From positions 806,001 to 870,000 of the forward strand of contig CP137320.1 in assembly GCA_033182465.1 (NCBI GenBank): 64,000 nt of DNA, given 5' to 3'. The translations under genes and the position numbers were made by a program. How positions within the stretch are numbered: position 1 is the stretch's first letter; the number at the start of each line of letters is the position of its first letter. This document shows, one piece after another, positions 4,163 to 63,531 of this stretch. Below the pieces are notes generated by a model that was not told where the DNA came from, did no database searches, and saw only the letters and a list, made by a program, of their open reading frames with translations. The stretch is from Sanghuangporus weigelae (Eukaryota > Basidiomycota > Agaricomycetes > Hymenochaetales > Hymenochaetaceae).

Positions 4163-4725
4163 GGTAGTCAGATGCAGTGGCAAGGTTGCTCAAACCATTG
4201 CTCGAGGAGTCCCGGCTTCATATACGTGTATCCACACCGTCCGTAGATATTTCTGTTCCTCATATGCATTCGGAGCAACTGAGTCCGGACCGACAAAGGA
4301 CCGGCGCAGTACACCGTCCAAGACGTGCTGGCATCTCGTGAGCAGAGCATAGCCGTATCCGGGTTGCGAGGAGGCGTGAAGTTGCTTCAGAAAGAAGGAG
4401 TATAGACTGGTATCCAGAAGGCACAAACGAAAGGTCATGTGTTGGGAAACAACGATCCGACAGACTTGCCAGATAGTCTCATTGAGAGAGCTGGACAATC
4501 GAGAAACTCCATTACTGAGAGCTTATCTAATAAGGGATTCAGGATTATTGCATAGTAGACGTAGACTAGTAGGGGGATTTCGCTTTCAAAATTTCAGCAT
4601 GACAGTGTGGTTAGAGAGGACACCAGCCAAACGAATCTGAATTTTACGTAATGGCACCTTGTTACGATCGCGATCGTGTATGGACGCGTCCCGTCATTCA
4701 TCTCAAGTCCATAGACGTCGGTATA
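4163..4725. promoter_or_regulatory. Divergent promoter region, GDSL esterase / AP-2 mu
   Basis: This 563-base stretch separates two divergently transcribed genes and must hold both promoters. Several short open frames occur on both strands, but none resembles a known protein. I identify no specific site. Confidence 0.5.
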
Positions 4726-6545
4726 ATGATCTCGGTGAGGAATACGTTGATTACATCCTTTGTTCGTCGCTGACGCCTTTGCAGGCGTTCTTCATATTCA
4801 ACCAGAAGGGCGAGGTTTGTGGGAGATTTCGTTCTTTACTGTGTCTTGACATTTGACGTCCGTTCCTGTGTAAGGTGCTCATTTCCCGTCTGTACCGGGC
4901 AGACCTCAAGTGCGGCAAGAAGTGACGCTATCGATTAGTGGAACTGAGCTGATGAGTATACTATAGACGCTCTATCGCTGATGTCTTCCGGATACAAGTT
5001 GTATCGAATAGTGACGTGCGGTCACCCATAATCACCCTTGGATCAACGAGTTTCTTCCATGTGCGGACCAACAACCTCTATATTATGGCTGTAACGAAGT
5101 ATTTCGAACTGCCCAAACCTCCAAAGAGCGTCTGTGCTAATGATGTCACCAGGAATAATGCGAATGCTGCGCTTGTCTTCGAGTTTTGCTACCGATTCAT
5201 TTCGATTGCGAAGGCTTACTTTGGGAAGGTGGATGAAGAGTCTGTCAAGAGCAACTTTGTGCTGATATACGAACTCATTGACGGTGCGCTGGGACAATAT
5301 TAATAACTTTCCGACGCATAACTTACCTTTGACGATCACAGAGATCATCGACTTCGGTTATCCTCAGAACAGTGAGACGGATACTTTAAAAGCCTACATC
5401 ACTACGGAGAGTATCCGCGCTTCTCCCGCGGCTCTGGTGAGTTATTCTCGTATACACGGCCTGCTGTTGCTAATATACACGTGAAGGAGGAGTCTTCGAA
5501 GATCACAACGCAGGCGACCGGAGCTATTAGCTGGCGGCGACCCGACGTCAAGTACAAGAAAAATGAAGCGTTTGTGGATGTTGTGGAGACAGTTAACCTA
5601 ATCATGAGTGCAAAAGGTGCGCTACCAAGCTTATTTTATTCAAAGCTCGGATCCAGAAGTCTTTCCTTAGGCACGGTTTTGCGAGCAGACGTCGATGGGC
5701 ACATCCTTATGCGGGCATATCTATCTGGAACTCCTGAATGCAAGTTCGGACTGAATGACAAGCTTGTACTGGATGCTTCGGAACGAGGAATGAGTGATGC
5801 TGTCGAACTTGACGATTGCCAGTTCCATCAGTGCGTGCGCTTGAATGAGTTCGACACCGATCGAACAATCAGCTTTGTACCTCCAGATGGGGAATTTGAG
5901 CTAATGAAGTGAGTTCCGTGTTCCATTCTAACGAGTGTTGCTCACTGACTGTCGAAGATACCGATGTACATCCAACATAAATCTACCGATAAAGGTCATA
6001 CCATCCGTGACTGAAATCGGGACAACGCAAGTCTCCTATATCGTTAGCATAAAGACAAACTTCAATCCGAAGCTATCTGCGACAAGCGTGGTTCTTCGGA
6101 TACCTACTCCGTTGAACACCACGATCGTTGACTGCAAAGTACAAAACGGAAAGGCAAAATATGTCCCTGCAGAGAACGTCATTGTTTGGAAGTATGTCGA
6201 CAGGATTCGTGGATGTTGATCTTTCACTCAGCATTTTTTCTTAGAATTCCGCGAATACAGGGAGGGCAGGAATGCACATTGTCTGGAACAGCCCAGCTCA
6301 CAGCAACGACACACCGACAAGCATGGGCGCGACCGCCTATCGATGTGGATTTCCAAGTGTTAATGTTCACTGCATCCGGGCTTCTCGTCCGTTTCTTGAA
6401 GGTATTTGAGAAGAGCAACTATCACAGTATCAAGTGGGTGCGGTATCTGACGAAAGCTAATGGTGGATATCAGATTCGAGTGAGTTTAACATGCCGCTGT
6501 ATCCAAATGAGAGTGATTGTTCTGACGCTTAGCCTGTAGTTTTGA
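4726..6545 (+). CDS. APM4: AP-2 complex subunit mu (clathrin adaptor)
   Basis: This is the medium chain of the AP-2 adaptor, which binds YxxPhi cargo signals and PI(4,5)P2 at the plasma membrane during clathrin-mediated endocytosis. The first coding exon is only nine bases (ATG ATC TCG, 4726-4734). An intron with donor GTGAGG follows, and exon 2 continues as AFFIFNQKGE, giving the classic MISAFFIFNQKGEVLISRLYR start. Next are the longin-like N-domain (VRSPIITLGSTSFFHVR, NLYIMAVTK) and the linker. The mu-homology domain includes ISWRRPDVKYKKNEAFVDVV, LDDCQFHQCVRL and FVPPDGEFELMKYR. The last splice gives the expected C-terminus YQIRF. An AP-1 mu is less likely because the N-terminus and SWRRPDVKYKKNEAF block match AP-2 better. 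Frame is kept through all junctions I checked. Confidence 0.94.
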
Positions 6546-6861
6546 AGAGGTGGACAATTGCATTTTATACCCTAGCTCAGCGCGATCCGCATGAATTTAA
6601 TCAGGATTCTTTTGTAGTATTGTATGTACGTTTGTCGATAAATTTAGCAACTAGCACCACAAACAAGATATACCCAATGAGAGTCGCGTGCACATCAATA
6701 TGCGAAGCTTATCTAATGTATTTGACCGGGCAAGTCGGGACGCGCTGCACTTGGACAGAACCGTCAAAGTGCCTCGAGCTTGTATACAGTCCCTAATTGC
6801 TGCTCAGTTATCTCCCACTCCCCTCTTGGGCGTACTGCAGCTTTCTAGTTAGCAGTACCCC
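6546..6861 (+). promoter_or_regulatory. Intergenic region between AP-2 mu and the SAPS gene
   Basis: These 316 bases hold the 3' end of the adaptin transcript and the promoter of the downstream gene in the same orientation. I see no additional gene; the short open frame at 6542-6796 has no family character. Confidence 0.5.
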
Positions 6862-9800
6862 ATGTTCTGGAAGTGCGTTGCTGACTCTGACTTGCTGATG
6901 TGAGAGCTGAGGTTCCAACCCCACAGATTTGGATTCCATGATACCTCGACTATAGACGCGTTACTTGACAAGGCCGAGGTATCGCTCGAGGCAATCTTAG
7001 ACGAAGACAACCTCTTGCAGGAATGTAAATCTCAGAATACGCGCCTTGTTGACTACTTCTCAAGAGTAGACGTCCTCCAACGGTTCTTTGGTTATGTCTC
7101 TGGAAACATAGAAGCAGAAGGGCCCAGCAAATACAAGTCTGTCATGTACATTTATCTTCCTCGCGTCTGTTTAGCTAACCATCCGCTTTTACTATGTTTA
7201 CAGATACCCTTATGTTGCAACAGAAGTATTGTGCAGTGAAATCTGGTCCATTGTTGAGACATGTCTAAACAACAGAGACCGGTTACTGGCTCCCTTCTGG
7301 GATGCCGTACTGGTCCGGACAGTAACCGACACGAAAGATCACAACATCATGGCGTCTCACTTCGCCAAGATCAATGCCACATTTCTGATGAAGAAACCGC
7401 ACGAGGTAACGTTGGTATACTGCACTAGATGTCCTGGAAACAGACCATGTTTCACAGATGCTCTCTTTCATTCAATCTCTACCTAATATCGTGGACCGTA
7501 TCCTTCGCCACATAGAAACTCCTGCAATTGTTGACCTACTGGTGCGAATCATCCAGCTGGATGAATACGCGTCGGACACAGGCGTGCTAGAAGTATGTCA
7601 TATATAGCTTGCTCATTGTTGAGCTCTCTTGACGAGACGGCACGCAGTGGCTCTCGACAGAGCGATTAATACCCCGGCTCGTGGAGCTTCTTTCTCCTTT
7701 TCATCCGTCTTCCACGCATGCCGTCGTGTCTGAGCTGGTCAAAGGGATCATATCAATGTCGGCTCCATCTCCCGGAGCGGGCATTACCGATGGTTTGCAA
7801 AACGGCCCAGCGTCAAATCTGTTTGCCCGACAACTCGCCAAGAGAGAGAATATCGAAAGGCTGGTCGGTTTCATGCTTGACGACTTCTCATTCGAGATGG
7901 AGCTGCTAGAAGCTCAGAGGGACGTTACTAATGGTCCAAGTCCCAAGCACACAGAAACGACTTCCGAAATCACTGCATCACTTCCACCAGCTTCTCCACC
8001 AATACCCAACCTCGACACTGCTATCTCATCGGGCACGCATGCAATTTCTATCATTATTGAACTTATTCGCAAAAACAATTCCGATTATTTTGAGCCGTAT
8101 CTTTTTCATACCATTCGAAATCGGCTTATTCAGATTCAGCAGTACATGCACGTACAAAGCGATGAAGGGCGGGAATCTTTGGAGCAAGCATTCAACGAAA
8201 TGGTGAATAGGATGGGTGTCGTCCATTTTGGACCTTTATTAGAAATTATGTGCGATCGGTTAGAGAGGTTCCAGCAATTACTGCACAAGCCTCGATCTGC
8301 GGTATGCACTTCTACCACCCAGATTCACAGCCGGGGTGCTGACGTTACTGTTTTTCCAGAACGAGACTGTTCCGACGACTCTTGGTCCTCTGGTTCCGTT
8401 GACGTTTGAGAGGTTCAGGATCTGCGAGCTTTACGCAGAACTTCTGCATTGCTCAAACATGTCCCTACTCAATCGCCCACCAGAGTATGATAATTTGTAC
8501 GATGAAGAAGGTCGCCTCAAGGGAGGATTATCTGCAATGGAGTTTCTAGCTCAGGTAATTGCGATTGGGTCAGCAACAGATGACCAAGGTGACATGGACG
8601 CCGATGAAGACGAAATGGAACCTGCGCAGGAATTGCCGGTCCATTCAACTGACCTCTCCTCCCTCGATTACTCAGACGAGGACGAGGACATGAGCACGGG
8701 CGATGGTGCAAGCAGTTCGGAAGCAGACGGCATGGAGGAAATCGATATGTCTGAGGAAACGCATATTGCCTCGCCTCCACCTGCTTCACCTCGTGAAGAA
8801 GATTCATCGAACGAACATCCTCCTCTGGCGGTGCCATCTGCACCAATCGCCTTTACCTTGCCGACAACTAGCGAGTTGTCCAGACAGGAATTCAGTCGGA
8901 TACGAAGCAAGAGCCGTTCACCTTCCTTGACGAATTCTGACCGCTCATCCGTTATGTCTCGTCCTGCTTCTGCGGGTTCGAGGCGTATGAGGCGGTCCGG
9001 GCTTTTAGAAACTTCAGGACATTTGCCTATTGGTGATAAGCTGAAGCAAAGATTTACGGAAACGAGGGTTCTTTCTACTCTTTTGGTAGTCATTCTTTTA
9101 ATGAACTAAATAATTCTATACTGACAGCCTAATGATAGGACCTGTTTTTCTCCTTTCCTTGGAACAACTTCTTGCATAGCGTCGTGTACGATGTGCTGCA
9201 TCAGATTTTGACTGGACGAGTAGAGCACGGTCTAAATAGAGAGCTCACAATTGCTTTATTCAGAGATGCACGTCTGCTTTATCGCATCGTCGAAGCACAG
9301 AAAAAGAACGACGCGGATAGGTCAGTGCGTTCTTGGCTGACCTTCAATTGATGCTTATGTGTCATATCCAGTTCGAAACCTGGGCATGTTCGATTGGGGT
9401 ACATGGGCCACCTGACGCTAATATCAGAAGATGTGATCGGAGCTCTTGAGCACTATCCTCCAGATCTCAAACTTCTTCTTGGTCAATATGCTCCCCGTCC
9501 AGATTGGGACGAATATGTCAGCGGTCGATACCATGAAACGAAGGTGAAAGACACTAGTCTTCTCGGCGGAGGCAAACCGGTTGTCGCACCTGGCACCGAA
9601 CGAGGAGCTGCGAAGTGGAAAGTGGACGAAGCGGAAATTGGGCCTACTCCATTGCCTGCAATCAATGGCTCGGAGGCAGTATGCTCTCCTGAAGCGACTT
9701 CCCAGATGAGGGGTGAATTTAAGAGAACTAATCGAATCACGCGCGAACCGAGCGCAGATTTTGGTGCCGCTCCACTTAATCATGACGATGAAGAAGACAA

Positions 9801-10488
9801 CGGTCCTCCTCAGGTGAAGCCTTTTTATCATTGTTTCGAGTATTCAACACTGATAGTCCCTTAGTTTGCAAGCTATCTTGCTCAGGCCATGTCAACGCAC
9901 ATAACATCATCCGACGATAATTCCGACGAAGACGACGAGGATGGAGGCTGGCTAGCCCAGAAGTTTGATATCTCTGATCCTCCCATCACGGCACGAAATC
10001 ATTCTTCAGATCGTAGACCATTAGATCCCGGGGGTCTTGAGGTAAATTCATTTGGTAAGGACAAATGTGGGTTTTTATTGAGTTTTGCAGGATCCGTTCA
10101 CGCCTCGTGAGGCTACTTCAAGCTCTTCTGGTGCCAATGCGTTTGATGATAATTTCGCATTCGAAGTGCGTACTATGGTCACGATACGAATAAATTCTGA
10201 CCCTCTCCATTGCAGGATGATCAATTCGGTCCATTCTCTGATACGGCAGCCGCTCCGGAAAGCAACCCCTTTTCTTCGTTCACGGGGTCCGCGGAAGACA
10301 TGGACGAAGCTTCTTTTGACGACTTTGGTGATTTTGGCGAATTCCAGGCTGCCGACAGCGATGTCACAGCTTCTGGTGGGAGTTGGTCATTCGCTAGTGA
10401 TACAAGTATCAGTTCTGGCTCAGATGATACGGAGGTGATTGATGTCACAAACTCGCCTCAGGACCATCGGACAGATTCTCAAAAGTAG
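6862..10488 (+). CDS. SAPS-family regulator of the Sit4/PP6 phosphatase
   Basis: Proteins of this family (yeast Sap155/185/190, human PP6R) bind the Sit4/PP6 catalytic subunit and direct it in cell-cycle, TOR and membrane-traffic tasks. The start is a short exon, ATG TTC TGG AA, spliced to A TTT GGA TTC CAT, giving MFWKFGFHDTSTIDALLDK, the family's normal N-terminus. The helical repeat region follows (RLVDYFSRVDVLQRFFGYV, FWDAVLVRTVTDTKDHNIMA, FLMKKPHEMLSFIQSLPNIV). Later come acidic Ser/Asp-rich linkers, including a stretch around 8580-8760. The C-terminal tail (10205-10350) contains FGPF, NPF and FGDFGEF, which look like clathrin-adaptor and EH-domain ligands. The gene has many short introns. 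The identity is well supported; which yeast paralogue it matches cannot be decided. Confidence 0.92.
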
Positions 10489-11908: not shown

Positions 11909-14900
11909 ATGGACTGGTGAGTAAAAAAAACCGTCTACCTTCCGAGTGATCGGAAGCTCATGCTTCTGCAGCCTGGACTTTGGTAATCTGCAGTCACTCA
12001 TCTATGCCGATCTTGCGAGAAATATCGGTGAATGCAAGGATGAAGAATCTATTCAACCAGCTGTGGATTTAATCAAATCTAGTGTTGATATTCCGTCGGA
12101 CGAGAAAACAGAGTGCAAGGAAAATGGATACTCCTCAGAGCGAATCTTCATGGTTCGTGTACGTTCAACGACTTTCAACCGGTCGCTAACGACGCTCGCA
12201 GACTGCCTCAAAGGTTTCTTGCCACGTCGGCTTTGCTCAACTCGCAACAAATTTGCCCGCTTCGCAGATCGACAGTACCGTGCCAGTTCTCCTGGAGATA
12301 CTGCGTGAAATACCCACTATGGATTTTGACACTACTTTACTTTGGCACAGTAAGTACATCCTTCATATGTCTGTCGCGCCGCACCAATCCTGAATCACGG
12401 GCCGCCGATTAGAGTGGGCACTTCCCGACCAGATCGTATCGGCAACCGTATCCGCTCTTTTGCGACTGGCTTCTTCGTTTCCTCGACATAGGTCTTCTGT
12501 AACGTCATCAATTCTCGAGTTTTCAACGATAATAATAGAACAGCTCAAAACCGAGCACCGTAAGTGCAATAATCTATTCGATGGACTCCATCTCACTCTC
12601 TCTTGGTATCTCTAGCAAATAATGTACTTACTCAATATGCGCCTTCGTTCCATGGCTTTTATCGCGCTATAATTTCAACGCCCTTCACATGGTCCGCGGA
12701 CGAGTGGAGCTGGCTAACAGAGAATATGAATAAACTATTACTACCTGAGGTCGTCGATCACTTGAATGACTTGCTTCCGCAGTCATTGCAATCTACTCAA
12801 TCAAAGCCTGAGGATGCTAGGTTCATTCAAAGCTTCCTTATCCGTTATGTCTCTCAGGACCGTCCGTTAACCGGATATTTCATCGTTTGTTGCGTCATGG
12901 AAATTATATGGACTGTGCTGGCACAAACGCTTTCTCCTCCAGCTGAAGGTTCGATGGACTTCGGGCCGGAGGTTCTCGCTGAAGAGGAAGCTGTTGCCGC
13001 TAACGAAGTCTGGGAGCGGCTGACACGTATGCCTGTTGAGCAACCACTCCTCTCGAAATCCCAGGAGATGTTGAGGAAGGTCGCTGGATATGCTATCCGA
13101 TGCTTCTCGGATTTGCTACAGCAGATCGAAGATATGGATGCCGAACCTTCACTCGATACCTATGCGTGGGAGACGATGTCAGAGTCACTGGTAAGGCACG
13201 ACTTTGGTGTTGTGATTGGTGCTTGATCTGAGCATGGATTCAGAAACTAGCATCGGTATGCTCTGTTGCCTTGCAAGAGCCGATGGACGAACTACTTTCA
13301 CGGCTGAGACTACTTCTCAGCGAAGCGTCTCCGATTTCTGATCACATGGTTCAGGAAGCAGCACTGAAATCCACGACTGTGATCGTTCAGAAGTAAGGGT
13401 CTTCCTCACAGAGTTTGGTCTTGGCTCATGATCATCGTCAGTTTCCCTTCGCTTGCGTCGACTATGTCCAGTCATCTACGACGATTTGTTACATCGCCTT
13501 TACCGATCTTTGAGTACGAGTTTGCCGCTGAGTTACGGGCTCCTTTGCCCCTTGCAGCGGCAGCGAAATGCTTGTCGCTATGTATCAAGCTTGCGCCAGG
13601 AGACGATTTTATCATGTCGAATATGTATTCATTGCTGAACTATATCTCTGCCACGAGCAAAGAGCCATACGAAAGTCCATGGAGTACACCAGTCACGCCA
13701 TTGCCATCTGTGCACTCTCAGGATCACGCTGTCCAATCGCTGAAGACTGGTTTACAGATGTTCAATGAAGATCAGCAGCGGCTTATTGGAATCACTACGA
13801 TTTCCGTGGTTACCTGTCTAGCTTTGGAGTTCAAACTTGATGAGGTCTAGCACTTCATTTGCAATGATCAGAATCCGCTTACTCACTGTATTACAGGTCA
13901 CTCGACTTACTACGTCGATGCTACTACAAAGACTCCGCTCGGCTGAGCCAACGGTTGAGGCAGCCATTGTCTACAACCTCGTTGATCTTGCGACAATCGC
14001 GCCAAAGAACACGTTCATAGATATCACAAGGGTACTCTCAACGATTAGTCGCTACGGAAATCGTGATGACCCTCGCTTCTCACATAACACTGTCAGCTAT
14101 TATGATCTTCTTTGTCACGCGTCGTCTGATTTGATGCCCGCAGGTTGTCGCAGCTCAAACAAAACTTGCTCAAGAACTCCGCAAGCGTCCCGAGCTTCGT
14201 GATGTCTATCTCTTCGAATTACTGAACCTCTTCATCGACAAGGGAGTTGCGATCCAGAACGCCATAATTTCGAATCATCTTCTAAAGGTAAACTAAACGA
14301 CCCTGTGCAACTTCTGATGCTAACAATATATGAATATAAGATCGATGATATGGTGGATCAGTTGGGCTCCCTTCTCTTACCAATTGATGCACTACTCACC
14401 CAACCCGATTTCAATCCATCTGAGGATGCTTCTACGGATGCTGTTTCACTTTTCCGTAACCTTTGGTTCTTGAGTGTTCTGTTCCAATTTACAAACCCGG
14501 AAGAACGTGGAGTACCATCTGCCGAGTGGCAGGTTGCAGCCTTGACGAGGATAGCAATTAAAACACCTGCTATTGTGCCAGAGGAAGTTCCTGACTTTGT
14601 GACAAGCTCTTTGGAATACAACACGATCATTCGTAAAGAATATGCGCAGATAGTACGTTCAGCTCTCATTGATCTATATCTCAAGTCTGACACTGGTGTC
14701 TTGGTCAGGCTATTCAACAGCATCGTCCCTTGCTTCTGAAACTCGTTCCTTCCCATTACAGCGAAATCCGATATCTTCTTCCCAGTCAAATCATTTTCCT
14801 TTTGACGATGCATGATTTGGAAGCGATGCGATCAGCCGCGGGATACCCTTCGTCCTTGCCGTTGTACTTCGTGAACGAAAGCGTTAATACCCACGAAGCC

Positions 14901-17900
14901 CTTTCCTCGTGTATGAACTCAGTCGCGGAGAAGGTGAGTAGTCAAAACGAAATGCGTATGAATTCCTTTTGAAGGGGAGCAGGTTATCCAGGCTACGATC
15001 GGGGAACTCAGCAAGCTGGTCATTGAACATAGCTTACCAAAGACAATGTCCAGTGAACTACGACAGTTACTTGTGCTTTGTTGTCACCGTGTCGCACGCG
15101 TTCGCGATATTGCTTTAAAGTATATCGACCGCCTAATCACATCATTCCCGTCTTTGATGTGTGATAGGCCACTTGTATTCGCTATTCTGGAGGTTCTAAC
15201 TATGCTGAGACGAGCCTGCGAAGGCGAGTTTACTGACGAGGTATTTCTTCTCCCTTGACCATGATCTTTTAAGACTTTTGTGCTAATGTTAGAAATAGTA
15301 CGATCCTGTATTTAATTTCCGTTCCGAGCAATACGGGATCGATCTAGAGATGTCCGACTCATATAAGACTCGGAATGATATTTTGGCTTCCTTGCACAGT
15401 CATTCCAATAACTGGCTCGGCCTTGCTTTGGCCCGTGCTCCGATTGAATTGCAAGCTACTCTTCAGGTGGCTAGAGTTTTACTGCAATGTAGCATCTACT
15501 TATCGAGTATGTAGAAGTATTTGGTCGCCGGTCGATTGGGCACTTCAATCCAATCCACGGAACTCGGCGCTTCTGTTGCGCTCCAGTTTGCAGCCGCAAT
15601 CGGACCATCAGAGCGGAAGCTTGGTAAGGAACTTTTTTGTTGAACTATTCTTCGCATGCAGGCTAACTATGTGAAGCACCGATTTCTGGCACTTCAGCTT
15701 GGCGCCCGGATCGCTCAAGAACATTGGCCTCGCAGATCGCTTTCGAAGAGAGGTGTGCTGGAGAAATGAGGAAGAGTCTAGCTCTTGATGACCGCAATCG
15801 TAAGATTCTAAACTTGATAGTCGGCATGAATCTGCTAACTACATCTTTTCATGTGCTATAGGATCTTTCGACTACGGGCAGATGCACCCGAAAGTGAAGA
15901 TTGCTAAAGCTTTGAAGGAGGTGCAAGCAAAGGATAGCTCGATGACCGTGTCGGATATGAAGGAGCTCCTGTTCCGATGTGTTGCTTGTCTTACTTGTGA
16001 TAGGGTAGGCGACCTCATCATGAGTATAAATCATGTCACGATATCTTCTCTCAGGCCGATTATGACCTCTTACATCATCTTGTTGCCCTGCCATTTGCCG
16101 TCTTTAGCCCATTGGTTATTACGGCAAGTATTGAGGCTTGGACATGGCTAGTCGCCGAAAGTCCTGAGCTGGAAATCCCTTTGATGATGGAGATCAACAA
16201 TTCTTGGGTTACAACGATCAGAAAGGGCTCGGGGCTATTCTGCGATACGATTAGGTACCCCTACTTCACTTCTTTCAAACTTGAACTGAGACTGATAAAC
16301 ATCCCTACAGCTCCTCCGATCCTTTCATGCATCCCATAGAGTATAGCCCGACGGACAAGTCTATCATGGACCTGGCAAACGCTGCTGCACGCAAGCTTCT
16401 TTCGCCGCATATCCTAATCCTGCAGTTCCTTCTCAGTCGTTTTCAGGCTGCTCGGTATCAAAAACCTGGTTTGATGCTACTTATCCTACGTCTTGTACTC
16501 TGCTCGGCCAGGGAGCATCGAGAGATGAGGTAATGACACCTGTATCTTCCATGAATCATCGCTGCATTAAGGACCACGTCTTTTCTAGTACTCATCCTTT
16601 GGCTCGTGAAGCTAGATTCTCTTTCCTCTTGTTCGGATTTGAGGCTCTGAAGAGCTCAAAGATGGATGCATTCTGCGAAAACAGGCTTCGCGAGGCATTA
16701 TACCATACAGCATTCTCTTGGTTTGCAGTACGACCTCAGTATGTGCATGTCTTATGCCAGCTTTTCGTTGGATTCACATAAGCTCCAGGTGGTCTTATGG
16801 TGCAAGCCGAGTACAAGTGGAGGCAGACATTAAAATTCTTTCGGATTTCTTAACATTACTTCAGGCTGACTCTATCCTGGGAATCAATAAGCTCTCTAGT
16901 ACATCGTTCGTACCAAACATGAGTGTAGCAGGTACGTCTCTTCCTTCTCGGTGGGACTACCGGTTCTCAAAGATAGGAAGAATCCGAAATGAAGAACGCG
17001 AATCGCCTGTTGCGCCTCCTCGTGGAAAACGAAATCTTCCGCCTTACCGTATGGAATAATCCACTCAGTGACGTCAAACGATTCGTTGATCCGTATGGTT
17101 CTTTGGAACGAATAATGGTCGATGTACGTATTATAGCATGTCATTCAACTTTTTTGACTTATACTTTTCAAAGGGTGCATGGATTAGGGAGATTCGGACA
17201 GCCTGGAAAATCGATCCTGCCCTTGTCGTTTATCTGCCCGAACGCTTCAAGAGTATCATTGTCGAAAATGAATGTGGAAGATGGATTAGAGCCCATACAC
17301 AGGAGGTGCTCGATTATCCTGAAGCTCTAAATTTCCTCGTAGGCAAAGGTCTCAGCACCGTAATCCAGCGCGACTTGAAGGTCTAGGATCTCTACCGTTC
17401 TTATGGTCGAGTACTGATTCCTTCCTAGTTTGTCTTGCTATGGGCACCTGTAACTCCGGTTGTTGCCGTGACTTACTTTGAACCACGATACTCTAATGAT
17501 CCAGTGCTGCTCCAATATGCTCACCGTGTCCTTGAGCAACATCCCGTTGAACTGACTTTCTTCTTCGTGCCGCAAATAGTCCAGGCTCTTAGAAATGATC
17601 CTCTAGGCGAGTGCCACAAAGTTCCTGACTGTTTTCTCCGTCGCTGAAGTCACAAAAGGATACGTCAAGAGGTTCATATTTGAGACAGCCAAAATATCTC
17701 AGCTTTTCTGTCACCAGATAATATGGAACATGAAGGCAAATTGCTATAAAGACGACGCAGCAGAGAAGGTTGGAAGTCTGAAAGAGCTTAGTAAAGACAA
17801 GAAACTGACATCGATACAGGAGGATCCACTCAAACCGTCGCTTGATAAGATGACAGATCTTGTCGTTAATTCCCTTTCTGGTGATGCCAGAACCTTCTAT

Positions 17901-19404
17901 GACAGGGAATTCGGTTTTTTCAATGAAGTGACCTCTATATCCGGGAAGTTGAAGCCTTTCATCAAGAAGAGTAAGCCGGAGAAAAAGGTACACTTTTGCA
18001 TTATCTATGCGACTGGTTCTAATAAACCTTCGAAGGCGAAAATCGACGAAGAAATGGCCAAGATTAAACTCGAAGTCGGCGTCTACTTGCCTAGTAATCC
18101 GGATGGCATAGTCATAGACATTGACAGAAAGTCAGGACGACCACTTCAGAGTCATGCGAAGGTATGTTCGATGGATGATACGAGTCACCAATATAACATG
18201 CAGGATATTGCAGGCTCCATTCATGGCCTCGTTCAAAGTGCGGAAGGAGCGTGTTGTGGTCAGCCAGACTCCTGAAAATGTCCTTGACGAGGAAGCGGCA
18301 GGGAAGGAGATGGTCGAAGAGCAAGACGTCTGGCAGGCTGCCATTTTCAAAGTTGGCGATGATTGCCGACAGGATGTCCTAGCTCTTCAAATCATCGCCA
18401 TGTTCAAGAATGTCTTCACAAGCGTAGGGCTGAATTTGTACCTCTTCCCGTACCGAGTTACAGCCACAGGCCCGGGGGTGAGTCTTGAGATATTATCCCT
18501 CTGTGTTCCCTGGAATGAACGGCCCAAACATTTCTTAGTGCGGTGTAATAGATGTCGTACCAAACGCAACATCGAGAGATGAAATGGGCCGAGCTAAGAT
18601 CAATGATCTGCTTGGGTTTTTCACGGCCAAATATGGTGGCGAAGACACGATCTCGTTTCAGCGGGCACGCCTCAACTTCATTCAGTCTATGGCTGCCTAT
18701 TCAGTTGCGTGCTACATCCTCCAAATAAAGGACAGGCACAACGGCAATATAATGATAGATGGTGAAGGGCATATAGTTCATATCGGTATGTAGCTTGAGC
18801 GTGCTTCTGCCGTTACGAGTTCTATTTAACTTTGATTTAGACTTCGGTTTCCTCTTCGACATAGATGAGTATCTAAATTTTGTACACTATGATGAATTCG
18901 TACTTACTGTCGTTTCACCTGATGTTTACGTCCAGGAGTAAGTTTACTTTTTCATCTTGCACGACTACATGCTAAGAATGCTTCTAGGGTATCAAATTTG
19001 AGCCTAGCTCATTCAAATTGAATCACGAAATGGTCGTTCTCATGGGTGGTCGTTATTCAAGAGGGTACACCCTTTTCCAAGAGCTGACGATCAAGGCCTT
19101 CCTTGCTATTCGACCTCATGCAGAACAGATCATTAGCACGGTGGAGTTGATGCTTGGTACTGAGCTACCCTCGTTCAAGGGAGAGCCGACTATCAGACGT
19201 CTCAGAGATAGATTTGCACTGCATCTGAATGAAAGACAAGGTGCAGATTTCATGACGGGCATCATCAGAAACGCTCATGAAAATATGAGAAGTACTGCAT
19301 ACGATGAGTTCCAGCGGGTGAGCATTATTCTTCATTTGCCTATGTCCCGGAACTAAATGAAAACATCTGATTCACAGCTCCAGAACGGAATTCCGTACAA
19401 GTAG
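11909..19404 (+). CDS. STT4: Phosphatidylinositol 4-kinase STT4 (PI4K type III alpha)
   Basis: This large lipid kinase makes PI4P at the plasma membrane, feeding PI(4,5)P2 and cell-wall-integrity signalling. The likely start is an 8-base exon, ATGGACTG (11909-11916), spliced to give MDCLDFGNLQSLIYADLA. A long helical region follows, roughly 12000-17700. The lipid-kinase-unique/PH-like region contains KVHFCIIYATGSNKPSKAKI and VYLPSNPDGIVIDIDRKSGR. The catalytic core has VFKVGDDCRQD-type lysine context (AAIFKVGDDCRQDVLALQII), the catalytic loop IKDRHNGNIMID and the DFGFLFD activation loop. The C-terminus is FMTGIIRNAHENMRSTAYDEFQ...NGIPYK, standard for Stt4. In the activation segment the frame needs an AT...AC intron and an 8-base micro-exon, listed separately. 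More than 20 introns are likely; internal junctions in the helical region were checked only in part. Confidence 0.95.
18865..18929 (+). other. STT4: AT-AC intron in the STT4 kinase domain
   Basis: Exon 18841-18864 encodes the end of HI-DFGFLFDI and finishes ATA G. Family conservation demands GPGG next. The only way I find to obtain this is to remove 65 bases beginning ATGAGT and ending TTTAC, which joins ATA G to GT CCA GGA (I-G-P-G). The 5' end equals a normal GTGAGT donor with the first G changed to A. The 3' end is AC in place of AG. The U12 donor consensus ATATCCTT is absent, so this looks like a major-spliceosome AT-AC intron. GT-AG alternatives shift the frame. Splicing itself is inferred. 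Confidence 0.8.
18930..18937 (+). other. STT4: 8-base micro-exon in STT4
   Basis: GTCCAGGA is flanked by the AC end of the AT-AC intron and a strong GTAAGT donor. The next intron (18938-18987, acceptor TTCTAG, branch-like GCTAAGA) leads to GGT ATC AAA TTT GAG. Joined, the exons read FDIGPGGIKFEPSSFKLNHE, matching fungal Stt4 kinases. Confidence 0.8.
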
Positions 19405-19630
19405 TAGAATTGAGAAGTAGATTGTGTTCCTTGATTATACAAACTCGTCTAGTTTCCTCTGTACTGTACATTCACGAACAAGAAATAAGCAGTTGCTTAG
19501 TCATCTGATTTCCTGAACCTCTTTCCTTTTACGCGCTGTCTCCTCTTACGCGCGTCTTGACCGTCCTCCTCCTCCTACTCCTAAGCTCATCACCACTCTT
19601 GCGATCGTCCTCTTTCAACGACAACACAAC
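19405..19630 (+). promoter_or_regulatory. Promoter and 5' leader of the myosin light chain gene
   Basis: A 226-base spacer between STT4 and the light-chain gene on the same strand. A pyrimidine-rich tract with CCTCCTCCTCCTACTCC at about 19563-19580 lies 50-70 bases before the ATG, a common feature of fungal core promoters and leaders. Confidence 0.5.
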
Positions 19631-20487
19631 ATGGTGAGCAAATAAATCACTTGAAAACTTGGTCAACGGACTGATGTTGACTGTCTGATGAATTGTAGAG
19701 TGATAACGCAGGTAACGCGTCAACCCTTCTCCTGCGGCATGCTTGTTCCAATTCCTGATATCACTTTGTCCATATCTTCTCTGATGCCGCATGTTCAATC
19801 ATCGCGACATACCCGCTTGGATGTTCATGTCGTGAACCGCAGAATACAAGGAAGCTTTCGCGCTTTTCGACAAGAAAGGAACTGGGGCTGTCCCTCGAGA
19901 GACTCTGGGCGACCTTCTACGCGCTCTAGGCCAGAATCCGACGCAGGCAGAAGTTGCGGATATCGTTGCCAATGCACCGCGAGAAGGTGAGTGTCAAATG
20001 CTCCTCTATTTCGGTGAAGTGATTGACTATTTTCGTTCTGATACGCTTCAGTCGACTATAAGACGTTCTTGACCATTTTGAACCGACCAGATGGGTTCAA
20101 GCCTGCAGGGACCGCTGGTGAGTCAACCTGACCTTTCATTGCATACTCGCCGTTGCACGATCATCTGACTACGAGAAATTTGACGAGTAGAGGAGTTCAT
20201 CCGAGGATTCCAGGTATTCGACCGCGAAGGGAACGGCTTCATCGGTGCTGGAGAACTGCGTTACGTGCTCACACAGCTCGGGGAGAAGATGACAGACGAG
20301 GAAGTCGACGAGCTGCTCAAGGGTGTTCCAATTGGAGCGTACGTTCTATCTCCCGCCTCTTCGCTCTTTCCCATTTGATTCCCCTATTACGATAACTTTC
20401 TAACGAGGCTTTTATGCGGTCTTTTGTGTGTATAGGGACGGAAATGTCAATTACGAAAGCTTCGTGCGCACCATTCTCACTCAGTAA
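19631..20487 (+). CDS. MLC1: Myosin essential light chain (Mlc1/Cdc4-like, EF-hand)
   Basis: This calmodulin-superfamily light chain binds IQ motifs of type II and type V myosins and acts in cytokinesis and polarised transport. The start codon stands alone at the end of exon 1 (ATG then donor GTGAGC). Exon 2 is only 13 bases (19699-19711), and a 131-base intron follows it. The protein begins [20 protein letters not shown] and continues with [76 protein letters not shown] and [16 protein letters not shown], about 148 residues. The EF-hand loops are largely degenerate, which separates it from true calmodulin and fits an essential light chain. Confidence 0.92.
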
Positions 20488-22390: not shown

Positions 22391-25076
22391 ATGGCCTCGT
22401 CCACAACACAGACTCAAGTAAAAATGTAAGGCGCACAATTTTATATTCAATTCATAGGAACGACTGACTGAAGAATAATCAGACTGAACGTAGGGCCTGC
22501 TATCGGAGCCATTCGAGACTTGTTTGCAAAAGTCAAGGCCATCGACGCGAAACATGGCAAGTTTGACCTCGTCATTTGCGTCGGCGATTTCTTCGGGCCT
22601 GTAGAGGGTGAGCATGTATCAAAGGAAGTCGACGAACTGTTGAGAGGGGAAATTGAAGGTATGCTAGCTCAAATGGTATATTATATATACCAAATGCTCA
22701 TCATAAACTATTCAGTTCCTCTATCATGTTATATCATGCAAGGAGACAACCCACTTCCCCAGGCCGTAATCCAGAAGTATGCAGAATCAGGAGGAGAGTT
22801 ATGCACGAATCTATTTCTGTTGAGTAAGAAGTTTGGTGTGCTCTGCCCGCGAATTATACTGAAGTTGTTCGCAGGTAAATCGGGTGTTCTCACTACTTCA
22901 CATGGATTGCGAATAGCATGCCTTGGAGGAGTGTATGACGAGCAGGTTTATGCTTCTGCAACCTCACCTCTTGTATGTTGCATACTGCATGTCTGAGTAT
23001 TGAAGACTTAATGTTTCTGTAGGGCTTCTCAGATCCTTATTTCTCTGCCCAGACAGCGGAGAAGTTAATCTCGAGCATAACGACGACCTCTTCCACCACA
23101 AACTCAAAATCCTCGTCTCTTGCTGACCTCCTCAAAACCTCGACTTCATCGCACCTTATTGACGTATTCATCAGCCACATCTGGCCGGCATCCATCACCC
23201 GCGCTTCAAATTCTCCGCCTAGCGAATCTAATGGAGTAGCTCCAGTGGATGAAATCGAACGAAAAGCGAAGCCTAAGTATCATTTCACCGTCGGTGCAGG
23301 TTACCCTCCCCAATACTGGGAACGTGAGCCTTATGTATGGGATGATGAGAATGGGAGAGTGTCGCGATTCGTTGCCCTCGGGGCTTTCGGTGGCGAACAC
23401 GGGTCGGGGAAGAAACCCAGGGTGAGACTCGACTTGATTTATGCTATGTTTCTTCTCAATAGTTGACCTTTATCCCAGTGGTTCTATGCGTTTTCCATCG
23501 CTCCCGGATCTGCACTATCATCCGCCCAAGCAAAACCTCCAAACGTGACTCCGAACCCATTCACCTCTCCGACATTCTCAGGAGCCGGGTCTATCAAAAG
23601 ACCGGCCGATATGGATGACATTGACAACTTCATATTCGGTGCAATTACTCAACCCGTGGCGAAGAAACCTCGATCGGGTAGGTTACCACCTTTTATTATT
23701 GTCTTACTGCTCGTTGACAACATTTATAGAGAAGGGCGAAGATGGAAAGCCACCGCCAGGGTATAAGTGCAAGATATGTGAATCAACCGATGTAAGTGAA
23801 TACTTGACCACATAAAAAAAAGCTGATTAAGCTTTGTTCAAGCACTTCATAAACGAATGCCCGGAACGAAGTAAACCGCCTGAAGGCTATATTTGCAAGA
23901 TTTGCAATACTGTAAGTCCTTTTTCCGCCTTTTTCTCCGGTCATGACTTTACGCACGTTGTCATATAGCCCGGGCATTTCATCCGCGACTGCCCTGAAAA
24001 GCACGCCACCGGAGACACAGGAGGGCGGAAACCAAAACCAGGATATGTTTGTCGAGCGTGCGGGAGCGACGCACATTTAATTCAGGATTGTCCTGTTGCT
24101 AATCAGACAAGACATGAGCGAGAATCAAAGGGCCGTCATAAGTTCCCACCAAAAGAAATTGCTCGTAAGTGCTTTTCAAAGTGCTTCTGATCGTAGTTGT
24201 GGATGAATCTTGAATCACGTTGTTAGCCAATGAATGCTGGTTCTGCTTATCGAATCCAAGTGTCGCGTAAGGACATACCTCTTTTTGTTAGGTACTACCA
24301 AAGCTAACTTTAGCTGCAGAAAACATCTCCTCGTCTCAATCGGCTCGGAATGCTACCTCACTCTCCCAAAAGGACAAATCATACCGACCGGCTCTCATTC
24401 TTCCCCAGATTCGGACATCTCCAAAGTCCCGGGCGGAGGGCACGTCCTCATCGTACCCATCACGCACTACCCAACGCTCTCCTCAATGCCTCCGGACCTC
24501 TCCATACCCATCGTAGCGGAAATCGAGCAGTACAAATCCGCGCTACGCGCGACTTACGCCAAACACCACTGCTCTGCCGTCAGTTTCGAGGTGGGGATCT
24601 TGAGTGGGCGAGGCGGGCACGCACACGTGCAAGTCGTGCCGATCCCGAATAGTCGATGTTCTCGCATAGAACAGGCATTCGTCTCGGAGGGCGGGTTAGC
24701 TGGGATTACGTTTGAGGAGGACCCGGATGCGGCGCTCGAGAGTTGTTCGGGTGGAAGGCAGAATTATTTCAGGGTTGATTTACCCGATGGACGGAAGATG
24801 GTGCATTTGATTAGACAGGAGGTGCCATTTAGTATACAGTTTGGAAGGTGAGCAAAGGCATTATTATTCTTTTAATTTTCAACTTCCGTGAGGTTGGTTG
24901 GCTTGTCTAATTATTATGATTTCCCTTCCTTCTTTTACAGGCAAGTACTGTGTAGAGTCCTCAGCGTACCCGACCGACTCGACTGGAAGGCATGTGCTCA
25001 GAGCGAAGCAGAAGAGCGAGCAGACGCGCAGGCGTTTAAGCAGGCTTTCGCGCCTTTTGACAATACCCAGAGTTGA
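22391..25076 (+). CDS. DRN1: Lariat-debranching partner Drn1 / CWF19L1
   Basis: Drn1/CWF19L1 proteins associate with late spliceosomes and stimulate the lariat debranching enzyme Dbr1. The start MASSTTQTQVKI is spliced to LNVGPAIGAIRDLFAKV. An N-terminal metallophosphatase-like region follows (FDLVICVGDFFGPV, GLRIACLGGVYD). Next come three CCHC zinc knuckles, CKICESTDHFINEC, CKICNTPGHFIRDC and CRACGSDAHLIQDC (about 23770-24095). The C-terminal CwfJ domains start with ECWFCLSNPSV and contain the HIT-like GGHAHVQVVPIP motif. The gene ends FAPFDNTQS. An intron interrupts each of the first two knuckles just before its His. There are many introns, and all joints checked keep frame. Nuclear location is inferred from orthology. 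Confidence 0.92.
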
Positions 25077-25617: not shown

Positions 25618-27866
25618 TTATGAGACCCAGACTATGCGAGAACGTCAGTCAATTTTTAAAAAAATGAGAAGGGGTGAAAAAATTTCGACTTACACGCTAG
25701 TGCGATCACGATATACAGGGTGAGCAACCTGAGTTCATATTATATTCACAATCGCTTAGAGACCATGACTCGAACAACTTACATGAGGCCTTCCATATAA
25801 TTTGACTTTCCGTCCCTAGTGAAGCGCTTTAAAATCTCGAACCACAGCATATGACAAAGGGACAACGTACATAACCAGCAGATTCACTAGGAACACAGAC
25901 ACAAACAATGTGATAGTCTAAGCAGAGCGCCCAAAGTCAGTGCCCCACAAGATCAACGATAAATCAAAGCGAATTTCAAACCTCAAAGTCAGCAAAGAAC
26001 AATGTGAGCTCGTGTCCCGATCTAAAAGAAAAAAAATTAAAATCAACACTCGGCCCGAAGAGTGTCTATAAATAAACTCACATCCAGCCAACGATTACAA
26101 GTAGTGGAACGACAAATGTTGCAATTTGCTAAGTCCAACCAAGTCAGCGATGCCATGCGTGTTGTAATCTGGTGCTACGCACAATCGAGCTCCCCACGCA
26201 GATACCGATGGTGAGTTCAGTCTTGTTCTTCAAAGCCATCCATACCGCGGTAACGTGTTCCGCGGCGTTTGCAACGATCGGAAGAAGAATGATACCGATA
26301 AACGCCTTGGGTATATGATATTTGCTTGCTGTTTCTTCAATCGATGCGACCACTTCATTTAAGATTGAGCATTAGTAATATAGTCCTGCAAAACTGGTAC
26401 GGGGAAACTCACGGTAATCGGCGCAGAAGGATGTTACTACAGTGGAAAGTAGGAGGCTGCAGCGCATTGATTAGAAGTCGATTTATAATCATAGACCATC
26501 AACACATACGACGAGCAGGCCGCGACAACGCTCATCCTCGGCGTCTCAGTCTCTTCTTCACCTTCAGTCTCAAAGTAGTGCGCATGCGTCTTCAGCTACG
26601 TAGAATGCATAAACATGAATCCCTACACTCAGCACCGAAACTCAGACGGTGATCGGCGCACCTGAAATATGAGATACCCGACATAGACAATAAGCAGTAA
26701 GATGGCTGTCCCTCGCGATATAGCCAACAGACCCTTTCTTGATGGATCACGGGCAGGCAGCATAGCTCCATCACTCGCGAGAAATGAGCCGAAGAGATTA
26801 TTCAGCCCGCCTTCATCGTGACTAAAAGGGCTATCATCGGCAATTTTAGAACTGTGATAAGCAGCAGGGATGACCAGAGCTAGTCGTAGACGACAACAGC
26901 GTCAGTTGAGGGAGCACGAGATTTCTCGATAATACAGAAAAGAAGCCGTACTTATGCAAGCCAGTGACATGAGCTGATCCATACAATCAGATAAGCAACA
27001 ATGAACGTTACTCATGAACTTACAGAGGCCGAACTACGAATGATCGAAGTCAGTCTGAATTCCACGCGGATTAGCTGGGACCGCTTACGCTTGAGCACCC
27101 GTTTCTTGGAATTTGTTTTCTTTCCGTCTGGTACCACCTTTTGACAAATTCCGATGAATTCCATATTAGGTAAAGATAATATACGAGGCGATACGAACCA
27201 GCCAAAAAGGAACAGCCAAGCACAAGGAGTAAGTTGGACAGTATCGAACCCAACATCTATTCGGTTATGTTTATTATAAGGCATGTCTTTATAGTCAACT
27301 AGACTTACGGATGTCTGTACAATGCGAATTTGATCTAATAACCATAGTTAGAAAGCTGCAAGTAAGCTGCGAAAGTGCGCTTACTTTGGAAGAGCGCCGC
27401 AACGCCGACAATAATTTCGACAGCATTGCCAAAAGACGCGTTCAAAAGACCGGAGACCGTCTGACCTAATTTGAGCGAAAGCTGGTCCGTGGCATCTCCT
27501 AGGAGCTGCACATATGCGTGGCGTCAACGGGCCACGGTCATTATGGGGTGACTGTGAGACAGACAAAAAAGAATAACTTGCCTTCGCCAACGGCATGATC
27601 GCAATGAAAGAGAATAAGAATCTAAGACCGGCATCCCAGTCAAGCCAGTGACTAAGGAAGCTCAAGGGTACGAAGACGAGGAGGACGTTAAGCCAAGAGC
27701 CAAAGAAATAGAACTTGTAAGATTCAGCCCAAGAAGGCTCTCCTTCGGCTTTTACAGTACGAAGAACGCGCCGAGCGAAAGGGAGATGGGCAGTGCTACC
27801 ATTGAGGGCATCACCGTTGCCGTTGAGGAGGGCTGTCCGCTCGTTGAGAGAAGATGCACCAGACAT
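25618..27866 (-). CDS. VCX1: Vacuolar Ca2+/H+ exchanger (Vcx1-type CAX)
   Basis: Cation/proton exchangers of the CAX family load calcium into the vacuole in exchange for protons. The start MSGASSLNERTALLNG is followed by a hydrophilic N-terminus and the first membrane segments (WLNVLLVFVPLSFLSHWLDW, LRFLFSFIAIMPLA). The c1 cation-filter region reads LSLKLGQTVSGLLNASFGNA then VEIIVGVAAL. Another conserved segment is TSMLGSILSNLLLVLGCSFL. The second half carries the c2 region on short exons around 26144-26400 (IVANAAEHVTAV). The last exons give VNLLVMDGKSNYMEGLMLLT then LYIVIALAFWVS with the stop at 25618, matching the family's C-terminus. The gene is highly fragmented by introns. Vacuolar location is inferred from the family. 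Confidence 0.91.
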
Positions 27867-38157: not shown

Positions 38158-41100
38158 TCATTCTTCAATGTCAACGTTCTCCTCCACAACGGAAATCTTC
38201 ACTCTCTTTCTCGTCTTCACCGTCTCTTGCGATGACGATCCAGATCGTCTCTTCAAGTCGGCTGCGGCCACCGGCATCGAAATGAACTGGGTCTCATCTT
38301 GCGTCTGAGATTCAATCTGCAACTGGGCATCGCGTGTCTCTCCCCCACAAGCAGGGTCCTCCTCGGCCGCATCCCTGTCCCGAATGGTCGGCGCCGTGTG
38401 ACAACACGTCAAGTTTGAAGAGAAAAAGACTGACCTCGCTCGTAACTGCCAACGGACATTAATGATTAAAAGCCGAGAGCATGCCAAAGTGATGAACTTA
38501 CTAAAGGAGTATTTGGGCGACAGTCTGATCCGTCTCCCTTTCCTTTTTCCGATTTCTGATTCTTAGATCTTTTTAAATTACGACCCTGTGATATAGCGAA
38601 TTAGCACTTCACCATGAATAGTTCACCGGCGTTCTCATACCAATCCTATCATGGTCTTCTCGGCCTCGCTATCTGGACTGAAGTAATCCCGATATAATGC
38701 CGAGTTCTTACATGCCGCATTGAATACGTATTTCTGCACTCGCTTCGCGCTTTTAACCTTCTTCGCTGAGCGTGTTGCACGAGAGCGAGTCTCAAGCAGC
38801 CCATTCTTGTCCATCTCAATGACCTCCATCAAAATGAATCCTATGGGTGAAGTGGTGTGGGCGTCACAAAGTATCATAGTACAAAACGCACCCCACCTTC
38901 TCGCTCCAAGCGATTCCACAGCTGCTCGGAGAGCGAGACACTGCATTTTGTCAGTTTCCGGAACTCCTTGAGACTTCCGGGATTATGAGTTTCTACAAAC
39001 TTAATAGCCCGCCTAAGAAACCGAGCAAGAGAAGAGCTTGTCAGCTGTTATCGCTTCGCGTAAAGAAATTCAGACCGAAAGAGTGTTAAGTCTACGAAAG
39101 CAGCCAGGATCTCTGGATACTTGTCCTTGATGAGGTCGAACTTGATATCGCCCTGTAGGCGACAAGGAATGCAGACATATTTCGCGGGTAGGCGGGAGTC
39201 GCTGGTTGAGTCATAACTAAAATAATCATTCAGTTTGCTCTGTGCGATGATGTATGCCCGAATGTGCACGCGTACCCCATGCACCTATTCATACAAGTTA
39301 GAATATGCATGAAGAATCAGATGGGTATGATTACCTGATATGCAGCCACTTCTCGCAACCCTCACAAAAGACGGCATCGTCGTCATCCTGTTTCTTGTCA
39401 GCAGATTCCAATTTGATGAACGAATTCACTCACATCGTGTTCACAAACACAAGAAACTTCTCCTGACACGGATTTTCTGCCCGAAACCCTGCAGGTAGGA
39501 GCTTCAGAGGCATTACTGACATCATCTCTGGCGTTGCCCCGAATAGGCTGTCGGTCATATATATTCATCGCCTGAGATTCCATGTCTATCGAGACGAAAA
39601 ATCAATTCCATCCTCTAGACATGAATTTTATATATCAGAACCAAGCATCTCATTGCTGGCGGCCCAGTCCATTGCCGACCCATCGAGAGCTGCTCGCAGC
39701 ATTTGCGTGTCAATTGTAGCCGTCAGGCTCCGATCGTTGATGGGTCTAGGGGAAAGAGCAACTTGAGAGGTATCAAGCTGCTGCGTAGGCTCGAGCTCTT
39801 CCTGAGCATTCCTCCTCGCCCGCTTTTGAAACAACAGTACAGATAATTTGACATATATGAAGCAGAAAATAACGTACCAGTTCACCAACTCGACTTGGTA
39901 CGATGTCCGGTTTCCCAAAGAATTGGGCAGGGCATTCAACGTCCATTGCGTCATCTTTTCCATCCTGGTTTGGGACTATGCTACCATCCGCCTGCCTCAA
40001 ACCTAATGGGCTGATAATAGCAATGCCCGAGTCATTTGCGTAATCCGGGTCGTTCTCGCCTTCTGCGTCATCATCAGTCCACCGAGAATCTTCGACATTC
40101 CACGCGAGCTTGCGATTTTCCGCGTCCTTCTGTTGGGTTTCGACTTGCTTGGCCCTCAGCTCGGCGTCCGGTTGGCCTTGTGAACCAGAAAATCCCTTAT
40201 TTGTGATTTTCCCGATGCCAAGATATTGTGAATCGTCCTTCTCATCGTTCGGTATGAAGCGAGCGATTGACTGTACTTGAACATCAATACTACAATTCTG
40301 TCAACAGTAATATTTCCAATTAGATTAAAGAACCGAACCCATGATGAGGTGTCGCGACGGCGCCTATGCTAAACTTCTCCGGAATTTCAGATCTGTTGTG
40401 CGTCGTGAAGACGAATCGGTCCTTCTCTGGATCACCTGGACGAAAATATGGCGGCTCATAATCTGGCGGAGTATTTTCTCTATAGAGTATTTTGAACGTA
40501 GCGAAACGGCGTTCTGCATGCATTTGGTCAGTTGGTGACCCGTACTCACAAATTGCAATACACACTCGGTAACGGTTCTAAGGCTTGGGTGATAAGGACC
40601 AAGTTCTTTATAAGTGACTGAAGAGCATCAATCAGTGCTCATGCGTCGAAAAGAGACCACATACCTTGATACTTTGTTTGACGTCTCCTAGTGTCGGTGC
40701 TCTTCCTTTAAGGGTGGCTTGAGAGACTGGATCTGAATATTCGGCCCTTAACCGAGGTTTCAGTGATAGTTTGTCAAGCTGATCGTCGAGGGACATGATC
40801 GGAACAGTGACTGTCGTTCCGGGAACCGCATAATACTGCGAGAGTGATGAGGCTTATAGAACAGTAGGCCACTCAGGTACGCACAGTAAAGTTGAAAGTG
40901 TAGGATTCTATGATGCTGGTAGCACAGTAAATTAGAAGGCATAAAATAAACGGATAAACGGCGGTACTTTTTAGGGTCATTGTTGTCCTGTCAGGGAAAT
41001 GGGTATCCGAGAGCGGAGATAGAGATTGTGTGACTTACAAGGTAGATTGCGAATATAAAGCTCTTGAGGTACTGACGCTCAATGGCGTCAAAAATGCCGT

Positions 41101-62591: not shown

Positions 62592-63463
62592 ATGTCCAAT
62601 CATCCTGTCTCGCCCCCGCCTATCCCGCCGAGCTCCCCGGGTGCTACTGGCGTCCGACGTGTACATACTATATCAGCTGCATCGCGAGCTGCCCGTGCTG
62701 GTTCACGCCTGCTGTCATCGGAAGAGGCACAACAGCAACAAGTCTGGAACGATGATGAGGTAGTCGATCAAGACTGGGTTGGCGGAGTCGGTGCTGTTGG
62801 CGAGAAGAGCTCGAATCTGCATCGTCAGGCATCTCTCCCAACAAGGTATAACAGGGGTTCGTAAATTATCAGCTACCATCTACTAGTATTTTGACATATA
62901 TATATCTTCCGCAGCATTCCCGCGCGGTAATCAAAATCGCCAGGGTGGTACGATGACTCCTAGGACGATGAATAGTCTTACTGCGATTGCTGCTGAGCAA
63001 GGCCAGGAAGGCGAGGAAGAGGAATGGGAGAACGACATGAAAGGTTGGAACGGTGACGAGGTAGTTGCATCATGCTATTACTTCCGTAATATCAATCATG
63101 TCTGACTGAAGCTCTAACTTTTAGCGCTTTGATGCACATGACATGGCGCACTACCAGCACGTAGTGGACTCCCAGTCAGGCTCCTCGCAAGGACATTCGC
63201 CGTTGTCACCGTCTTTCCCTGCACATACAACCTCGCCTCCTCCGGCTGAAGTTAATGTAAGACGTAACCAATCTTTGACCTATGGTGCGGCTGCCGGAAA
63301 TGTCCGTCGCATGGCAGTCAACTTGCGACGCTCCGGAACGCTTCAAGCTCATATGGAACGTCCGCACGCGGCTTCTTCCGCCTCACCTCCGAGTCCACTT
63401 GACAACGAGGAAGACTTTGCCGACGAAGTTTATAATGAAGAAGATTATCAATACGCTTTGCTT

Positions 63464-63531
<68 letters not shown>

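Follow-up and report, generated by a model that had tools for sequence, protein, structure and literature searches.

The question raised by this locus is how the transcript of a phosphatidylinositol 4-kinase gene is spliced at a point where the reading frame and the protein family both call for the removal of a segment that begins with AT and ends with AC, and which spliceosome would remove it. The window analyzed is a stretch of 64,000 nucleotides from Sanghuangporus weigelae (contig CP137320.1, positions 806,001 to 870,000, forward strand), and a preliminary description had read positions 18865-18929 as an AT-AC intron handled by the major spliceosome. That reading turned out to be the best of the models tested, judged by homology, donor and acceptor quality, the absence of U12 signals and reports on the lineage. 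Reasoning from the DNA, we infer that 18865-18929 is very probably a spliceosomal AT-AC intron that the major (U2-type) spliceosome excises from an STT4/PI4KA-type kinase transcript.

The window was modeled with an ab initio gene finder, a crude tool that returned 22 models containing 143 introns. These predicted introns are short and dense, as would suit a basidiomycete. The STT4 model (Table 1) is home-made in the same sense, and its start codon and some of its introns are uncertain. When the AT-AC splice is applied, the C-terminal 653 amino acids align with PI4KA over 635 query residues (best chain 6bq1_E, E = 5.8e-152), and HIDFGFMFESSPGG stands opposite HIDFGFLFDIGPGG in this alignment. 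The chain is one that we take to be human PI4KA. A pseudogene is unlikely because of this match; the open frame of the model was obtained partly by construction. Deletion mutants of STT4 were not obtainable in Cryptococcus neoformans according to the text of PMC5052723, so that at least one basidiomycete probably cannot do without the gene. Within the model, the predicted intron at 17621-17684 (plus strand) has a low score (-6.0) and lies inside an open frame (17607-18275), and it may be no intron. A search with NCBIfam profiles returned nothing useful, with one sub-threshold match to UbiB.

Several neighbors on the plus strand can be described briefly. An adjacent gene encodes a CwfJ_C_1 domain at 24234-24848 (PF04677, E = 5.6e-21), a family that is spliceosome-associated. 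The ab initio model at 4651-10488 probably fuses two genes, with a SAPS domain (PF04499) in the second part and, presumably, a likeness to the mu subunit of an AP complex at its start. The model at 62592-64000, which is cut by the end of the window, predicts a protein with a long polyglutamine run.

Table 1. Coordinates of the STT4 gene model and of the proposed AT-AC intron with its surroundings
Feature	Position	Strand	Basis or remark
STT4 / PI4KA-type phosphatidylinositol 4-kinase gene (predicted)	11909-19404	+	28 introns predicted ab initio; PI4KA match
Exon end, encoding (D)FGFLFDI and position 1 of the following Gly codon	18841-18864	+	follows GT-AG intron 18786-18840
Putative AT-AC intron, 65 nt, 32% GC, donor TAG/ATGAGT, acceptor GTTTAC/G	18865-18929	+	frame and motif restored; best of 20 models
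Putative 8-nt exon GTCCAGGA, completing the Gly codon and encoding Pro-Gly of PGG	18930-18937	+	frame, homology
Putative GT-AG intron, 50 nt, GTAAGT...TTCTAG	18938-18987	+	frame, site scores
Downstream exon GIKFEPSSFKLNHEMVVLMGG...	18988-19317	+	upper part missing from the ab initio prediction
Likely branch-point A in TACTTAC / CTTAC, 23 nt from intron end	18906	+	probable choice among several

The exon upstream ends with ...GACATAG at 18864, the candidate intron reads ATGAGT...GATGTTTAC, and GGTATCAAA comes after the second intron. Each of the elements on which the preliminary description was built (the exon end, ATGAGT, TTTAC and the GTAAGT donor) was found in place. When 18865-18929 and 18938-18987 are both removed, the result is DFGFLFDIGPGGIKFEPSSFKLNHEMVVLMGG in a single open frame, and DFGFLFDIGPGGIKFEPSSFK is restored opposite DFGFMFESSPGG of PI4KA, which bears out the earlier assertion that excision of these 65- and 50-nt segments recovers the family sequence. 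Very short internal exons were also predicted elsewhere in the window, at 19699-19711 (13 nt), 27024-27033 (10 nt) and 38435-38445 (11 nt); these may be artefacts or real micro-exons.

It had further been claimed that GT-AG options either break the frame or lose the GPGG motif, and this is true of the GT-AG options enumerated. Within 18865-18937, AG occurs just twice, in neither case as the end of a GT-AG intron that keeps the frame. The frame is kept by six GT-AG introns that run to 18987 (from the GT at 18882, 18900, 18909, 18912, 18924 or 18930), in which GPG gives way to 6 to 22 other residues. Pairs of introns were enumerated with starts of GT, GC, AT or GA and ends of AG, AC or AT, and the frame was restored by 21 pairs, 8 with stop codons and 13 without. 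The 13 stop-free pairs comprise five AT-AC (18865-18929 included), five AT-AT and three AT-AG; the non-GT options other than 18865-18929 were absent from the preliminary description. Two in-frame GT-AC pairs were rejected, both yielding stop codons. The good donor is shared by just 2 of the 12 other stop-free pairs, namely AT-AT 18865-18923 and AT-AG 18865-18935, and the donors of the remaining 10 score from -3.67 to 2.99, as against 5.0 for 18865.

The products of 20 stop-free models (the 13 pairs, the six GT-AG introns and the gene finder's own choice) were ranked by BLASTP against segments of PI4KA and PI4KB; a further stop-free option, AT at 18861 to AG at 18987, was left out of this ranking. 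The product of the 18865-18929 AT-AC splice was the best of the 20 on both targets, with 97.8 bits for PI4KA and 78.6 bits for PI4KB, and the other 19 reached 73.9-93.6 and 52.8-74.7 bits, respectively. The nearest models were AT-AC 18877-18929 (93.6/74.3 bits) and AT-AC 18871-18929 (93.2/74.7 bits), which depend on poor donors (-2.57 and -3.67, vs 5.0). The two pairs that share the good donor scored 92.8/73.9 bits (AT-AT 18865-18923) and 92.0/71.6 bits (AT-AG 18865-18935), and the six single GT-AG introns gave 83.2-91.7 bits for PI4KA and 67.4-70.9 bits for PI4KB. When four products of 48-54 amino acids were searched against the PDB, the AT-AC product alone found matches at E values up to 1e-3 (10 sequences). 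The PF00454 profile does not discriminate among splice models, with 143.9 bits for the single intron from the GT at 18882, 141.0 for AT-AC, 139.3 for AT-AG and 126.5 for 18938-19061, a lean of 2.9 bits toward the rival from 18882. This profile is broad, and the PI4K-specific comparison was therefore given more weight.

Ab initio scores taken by themselves point elsewhere. The gene finder chose a GT-AG intron at 18938-19061, with a total of 5.37 vs 3.72 for the AT-AC model before any penalty, and other canonical models also outscore AT-AC once a realistic AT-AC penalty is charged. When AT-AC introns were allowed at penalties of -9, -7, -5 and -3, the program never called 18865-18929. It made no AT-AC call at all at the first three settings and two elsewhere at -3 (19304-19440 and 19485-19549), one at the predicted 3' end of the STT4 gene and one shortly beyond it, both judged implausible. 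The intron 18938-19061 was itself judged to be wrong; it leaves out GIKFEPSSFKLNHEMVVLMGGRYSR, a stretch that resembles PI4KA, and its product obtained 73.9/52.8 bits in the BLASTP ranking. Reading through without a splice meets no stop before 18938, and the codon score of this frame is not negative.

If the first and last bases are set aside, 18865-18929 resembles the ordinary introns of the 64-kb window. Site and length percentiles were taken from 132 of the 143 predicted introns, after three models with scores below 5 had been dropped, and the U12 and GC comparisons used all 143. Against this reference, a rough yardstick only, given that its introns were chosen by the same scoring model, the donor falls at the 85th percentile of the predicted GT-AG introns if +1 is disregarded, the acceptor at the 45th if -1 is disregarded, and the length at the 83rd (median 57 nt). 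The description of the donor as an otherwise perfect GTGAGT is sound: ATGAGT retains positions +2 to +6. GTGAGT, identical in these five positions, heads the donor hexamers of the predicted introns with 18 cases. The GC content of the segment is low, near the 5th percentile of the 143 introns (median 42%; predicted coding sequence, 51%). A scan of both strands for AT, a donor this strong and a terminal AC found a single case among 127,834 stretches of 65 nt, which was 18865-18929 itself, the segment from which the donor threshold had been taken; the same rule with GT...AG found three. AT sites with that donor score occupy 16 of 127,982 positions, and AC occurs at 5.6% of positions, so that the two would coincide at one given register with a frequency of about 7e-6.

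The choice of branch site is less clear-cut. The CTTAC motif (score 3.89) ranks between the 25th and 50th percentiles. The top-scoring motif, CTGAT at 18922 (5.03), is only 7 nt from the end of the intron, closer than in nearly all of the 132 predicted introns, and a third option, TTCAC at 18917, lies 12 nt from the end. For the 50-nt intron that follows, CTAAG is the top branch-site prediction, with a weak score of 0.04. RNA folding of the intron region was unremarkable (z = 0.38, 1.59 and 0.23), and a stem joining the splice sites is therefore unsupported.

Among the alternatives, an AT-AG intron at 18865-18935 (71 nt), again followed by the 50-nt intron, would leave the donor base as the sole unusual feature, and the protein would then read DFGFLFDIGGIKFEP. 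This model is in frame, its CCAG is the first AG past the likely branch site, and its ab initio total of 3.10 compares with 3.72 for AT-AC, both before any penalty. In Ganoderma lingzhi, moreover, the text of PMC11590231 lists slightly more AT-AG than AT-AC introns (21 vs 13). Even so, this model is very unlikely, and it is doubted chiefly because an exon of only 2 nt (GA, 18936-18937) would remain between the introns. The splice also removes the Pro-Gly of PGG, its product falls 5.8 (PI4KA) and 7.0 (PI4KB) bits below that of AT-AC, and the 49-residue product has no PDB match at 1e-3. In yeast, splicing should stall at the second step when the first base is A and the last is G, a further point counted against this model.

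An equally small chance attaches to a single GT-AG intron that would run from a weak donor within 18882-18930 to 18987, with part of the stretch coding for an insert in place of GPG. Introns of this kind have canonical ends, all six keep an open frame, and their ab initio totals range from -2.64 to 3.33; the PF00454 profile leans to the 18882 product, as noted above. Their donors are poor, however (log-odds of -3.18 to 0.99, as compared to 5.67 for the GTAAGT at 18938), and the two best of these donors lead to long introns of 106 and 88 nt. PGG is lost in all six, with PI4KA scores 6.1 to 14.6 bits lower than for the AT-AC product. Such an intron would also turn ATGAGT, the exact Pro-Gly codons and GTAAGT into mere accidents.

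The probability is lower again for an ordinary GT-AG intron with a sequencing or assembly error at each end: the segment differs from a consensus intron by two single bases only, and the window comes from a single source, but two independent errors would be needed, exactly at two interacting bases, in a gene whose C-terminal part has a 635-residue alignment to PI4KA. Editing of the first intron base from A to I was rejected, because the AC at the 3' end would be left unexplained.

The remaining question is which spliceosome would act on an AT-AC intron at this site. The ends (AT at 18865-66, AC at 18928-29), the U1-like donor body and the G at +5 are those of U2-type AT-AC introns. For the U12 type, the donor consensus RTATCCTT (from PMC2846911) and the branch-site core CCTTAAC (from PMC3033335) were taken from the text of those papers. 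At 18865, three of eight donor positions agree (ATGAGTATC vs ATATCCTT). The branch consensus also has a longer form, which was used for the 9-position match. Near the 3' end, the best agreement with TTCCTTAAC is five of nine positions, the commonest value among the predicted introns here (78 of 143). An Rfam scan of the 64-kb window alone gave 0 matches, a result of little weight for the presence of U11, U12, U4atac and U6atac in the genome. Searches for related loci by pattern gave 5 stretches in viral contigs and 47 in genome contigs, none of which was confirmed. The text passages of PMC10639083 and PMC2846911 report no convincing minor introns in Basidiomycota, the latter on the basis of one species, Phakopsora pachyrhizi, with 2 other AT-AC introns. 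U12-class RNA genes are described in the basidiomycete Cutaneotrichosporon oleaginosum (text of PMC7072748), and U12 machinery may therefore not be absent from every member of the group. Removal of 18865-18929 by the minor spliceosome, which the AT-AC ends might otherwise bring to mind, is extremely improbable in light of these donor and branch mismatches and of the reports on the lineage.

AT-AC introns are rare but documented in fungi. The main text of PMC11590231 sets the 13 AT-AC introns of the Agaricomycete G. lingzhi against 89,855 GT-AG introns (0.014%) and describes a Sanger-confirmed AT-AC junction in chr6g0094801, a gene left broken by automated annotation; the figure legend names a DNA polymerase delta zinc-finger domain. 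For Coriolopsis trogii, the text of PMC13395996 gives a frequency of 0.0235%, with AT-AC one of five types among 11 sites amplified by PCR, and the selected sites are said to be confirmed. These are Agaricomycete genomes like the present one, and the main-text passages of the two papers contain no STT4 case. Broader figures are 0.019% of introns in fungal annotations (a table in PMC7072748), 0.03% of predicted introns in one fungal study (text of PMC4084796) and 69 of 14,305 RNA-seq junctions in Trichoderma longibrachiatum (text of PMC4324775). The G. lingzhi and C. trogii rates correspond to about 0.02 to 0.03 AT-AC introns per 143, and a single find in this window is therefore uncommon, though unremarkable over whole genomes. 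Titles and abstract openings, a scope that leaves subscription journals and supplements outside, contained no AT-AC intron in STT4, and absence from print is not claimed. What is new here is the host gene together with the 8-nt exon; AT-AC introns as such are already documented in Agaricomycetes.

Two better-studied systems provide useful comparisons. U2-type AT-AC introns of animals were reportedly treated by Wu and Krainer in 1997. The class represented by SCN4A intron 21 (Dietrich et al. 1997, as described in the text of PMC2831892) has the same AT-AC ends, a U2-like donor body and G at +5, and that paper regards its members as descendants of U12 introns. Unlike that class, 18865-18929 looks like an altered version of a short, ordinary fungal intron, in a group reported to lack minor introns. 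In yeast, a fungus without a U12 spliceosome, the major spliceosome likewise handles such ends: the text of PMC6726248 describes compensation between the first and last bases of a mutated intron, in which AT-AC was the most efficient pair after GT-AG (Parker and Siliciano 1993), and an AT-AC protointron in SUT635. The yeast cases are a laboratory mutant and a noncoding protointron, whereas the candidate here would be a constitutive intron in a housekeeping gene. The same AT-AC chemistry would explain 18865-18929.

The intron would have arisen from an ordinary GTGAGT...TTTAG-like ancestor by two substitutions, one turning the first G into A and the other turning the final G into C. The donor, otherwise normal and intact from +2 to +6, would still be recognized by U1 and U6, and U2 would bind the TACTTAC-like branch site. 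The A at the first position and the C at the last would then stand in for the usual G/G contact of the second catalytic step. The next intron would be an ordinary GT-AG intron, and between the two would lie the 8-nt exon, source of the Pro-Gly in the activation segment's conserved PGG.

If the AT-AC stretch alone were retained, the reading would continue as ...VQEVSNLSLAHSN and then reach a stop codon. It is unlikely, but conceivable, that this splicing step is slow or tunable on account of its AT-AC ends and the 8-nt exon; variable efficiency could then control, through unproductive transcripts, how much is made of a lipid kinase that is probably essential. On that reading, if related species share the A/C pair, it would have been selected for a regulatory role and not have come about by drift. 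On the practical side, gene finders limited to the common splice sites break such genes, and the one used here skips kinase residues similar to PI4KA. The AT-AC intron proposed for 18865-18929 is a clean natural candidate for an exchange of the first and last bases to A with C, in a lineage from which minor introns are reported missing.
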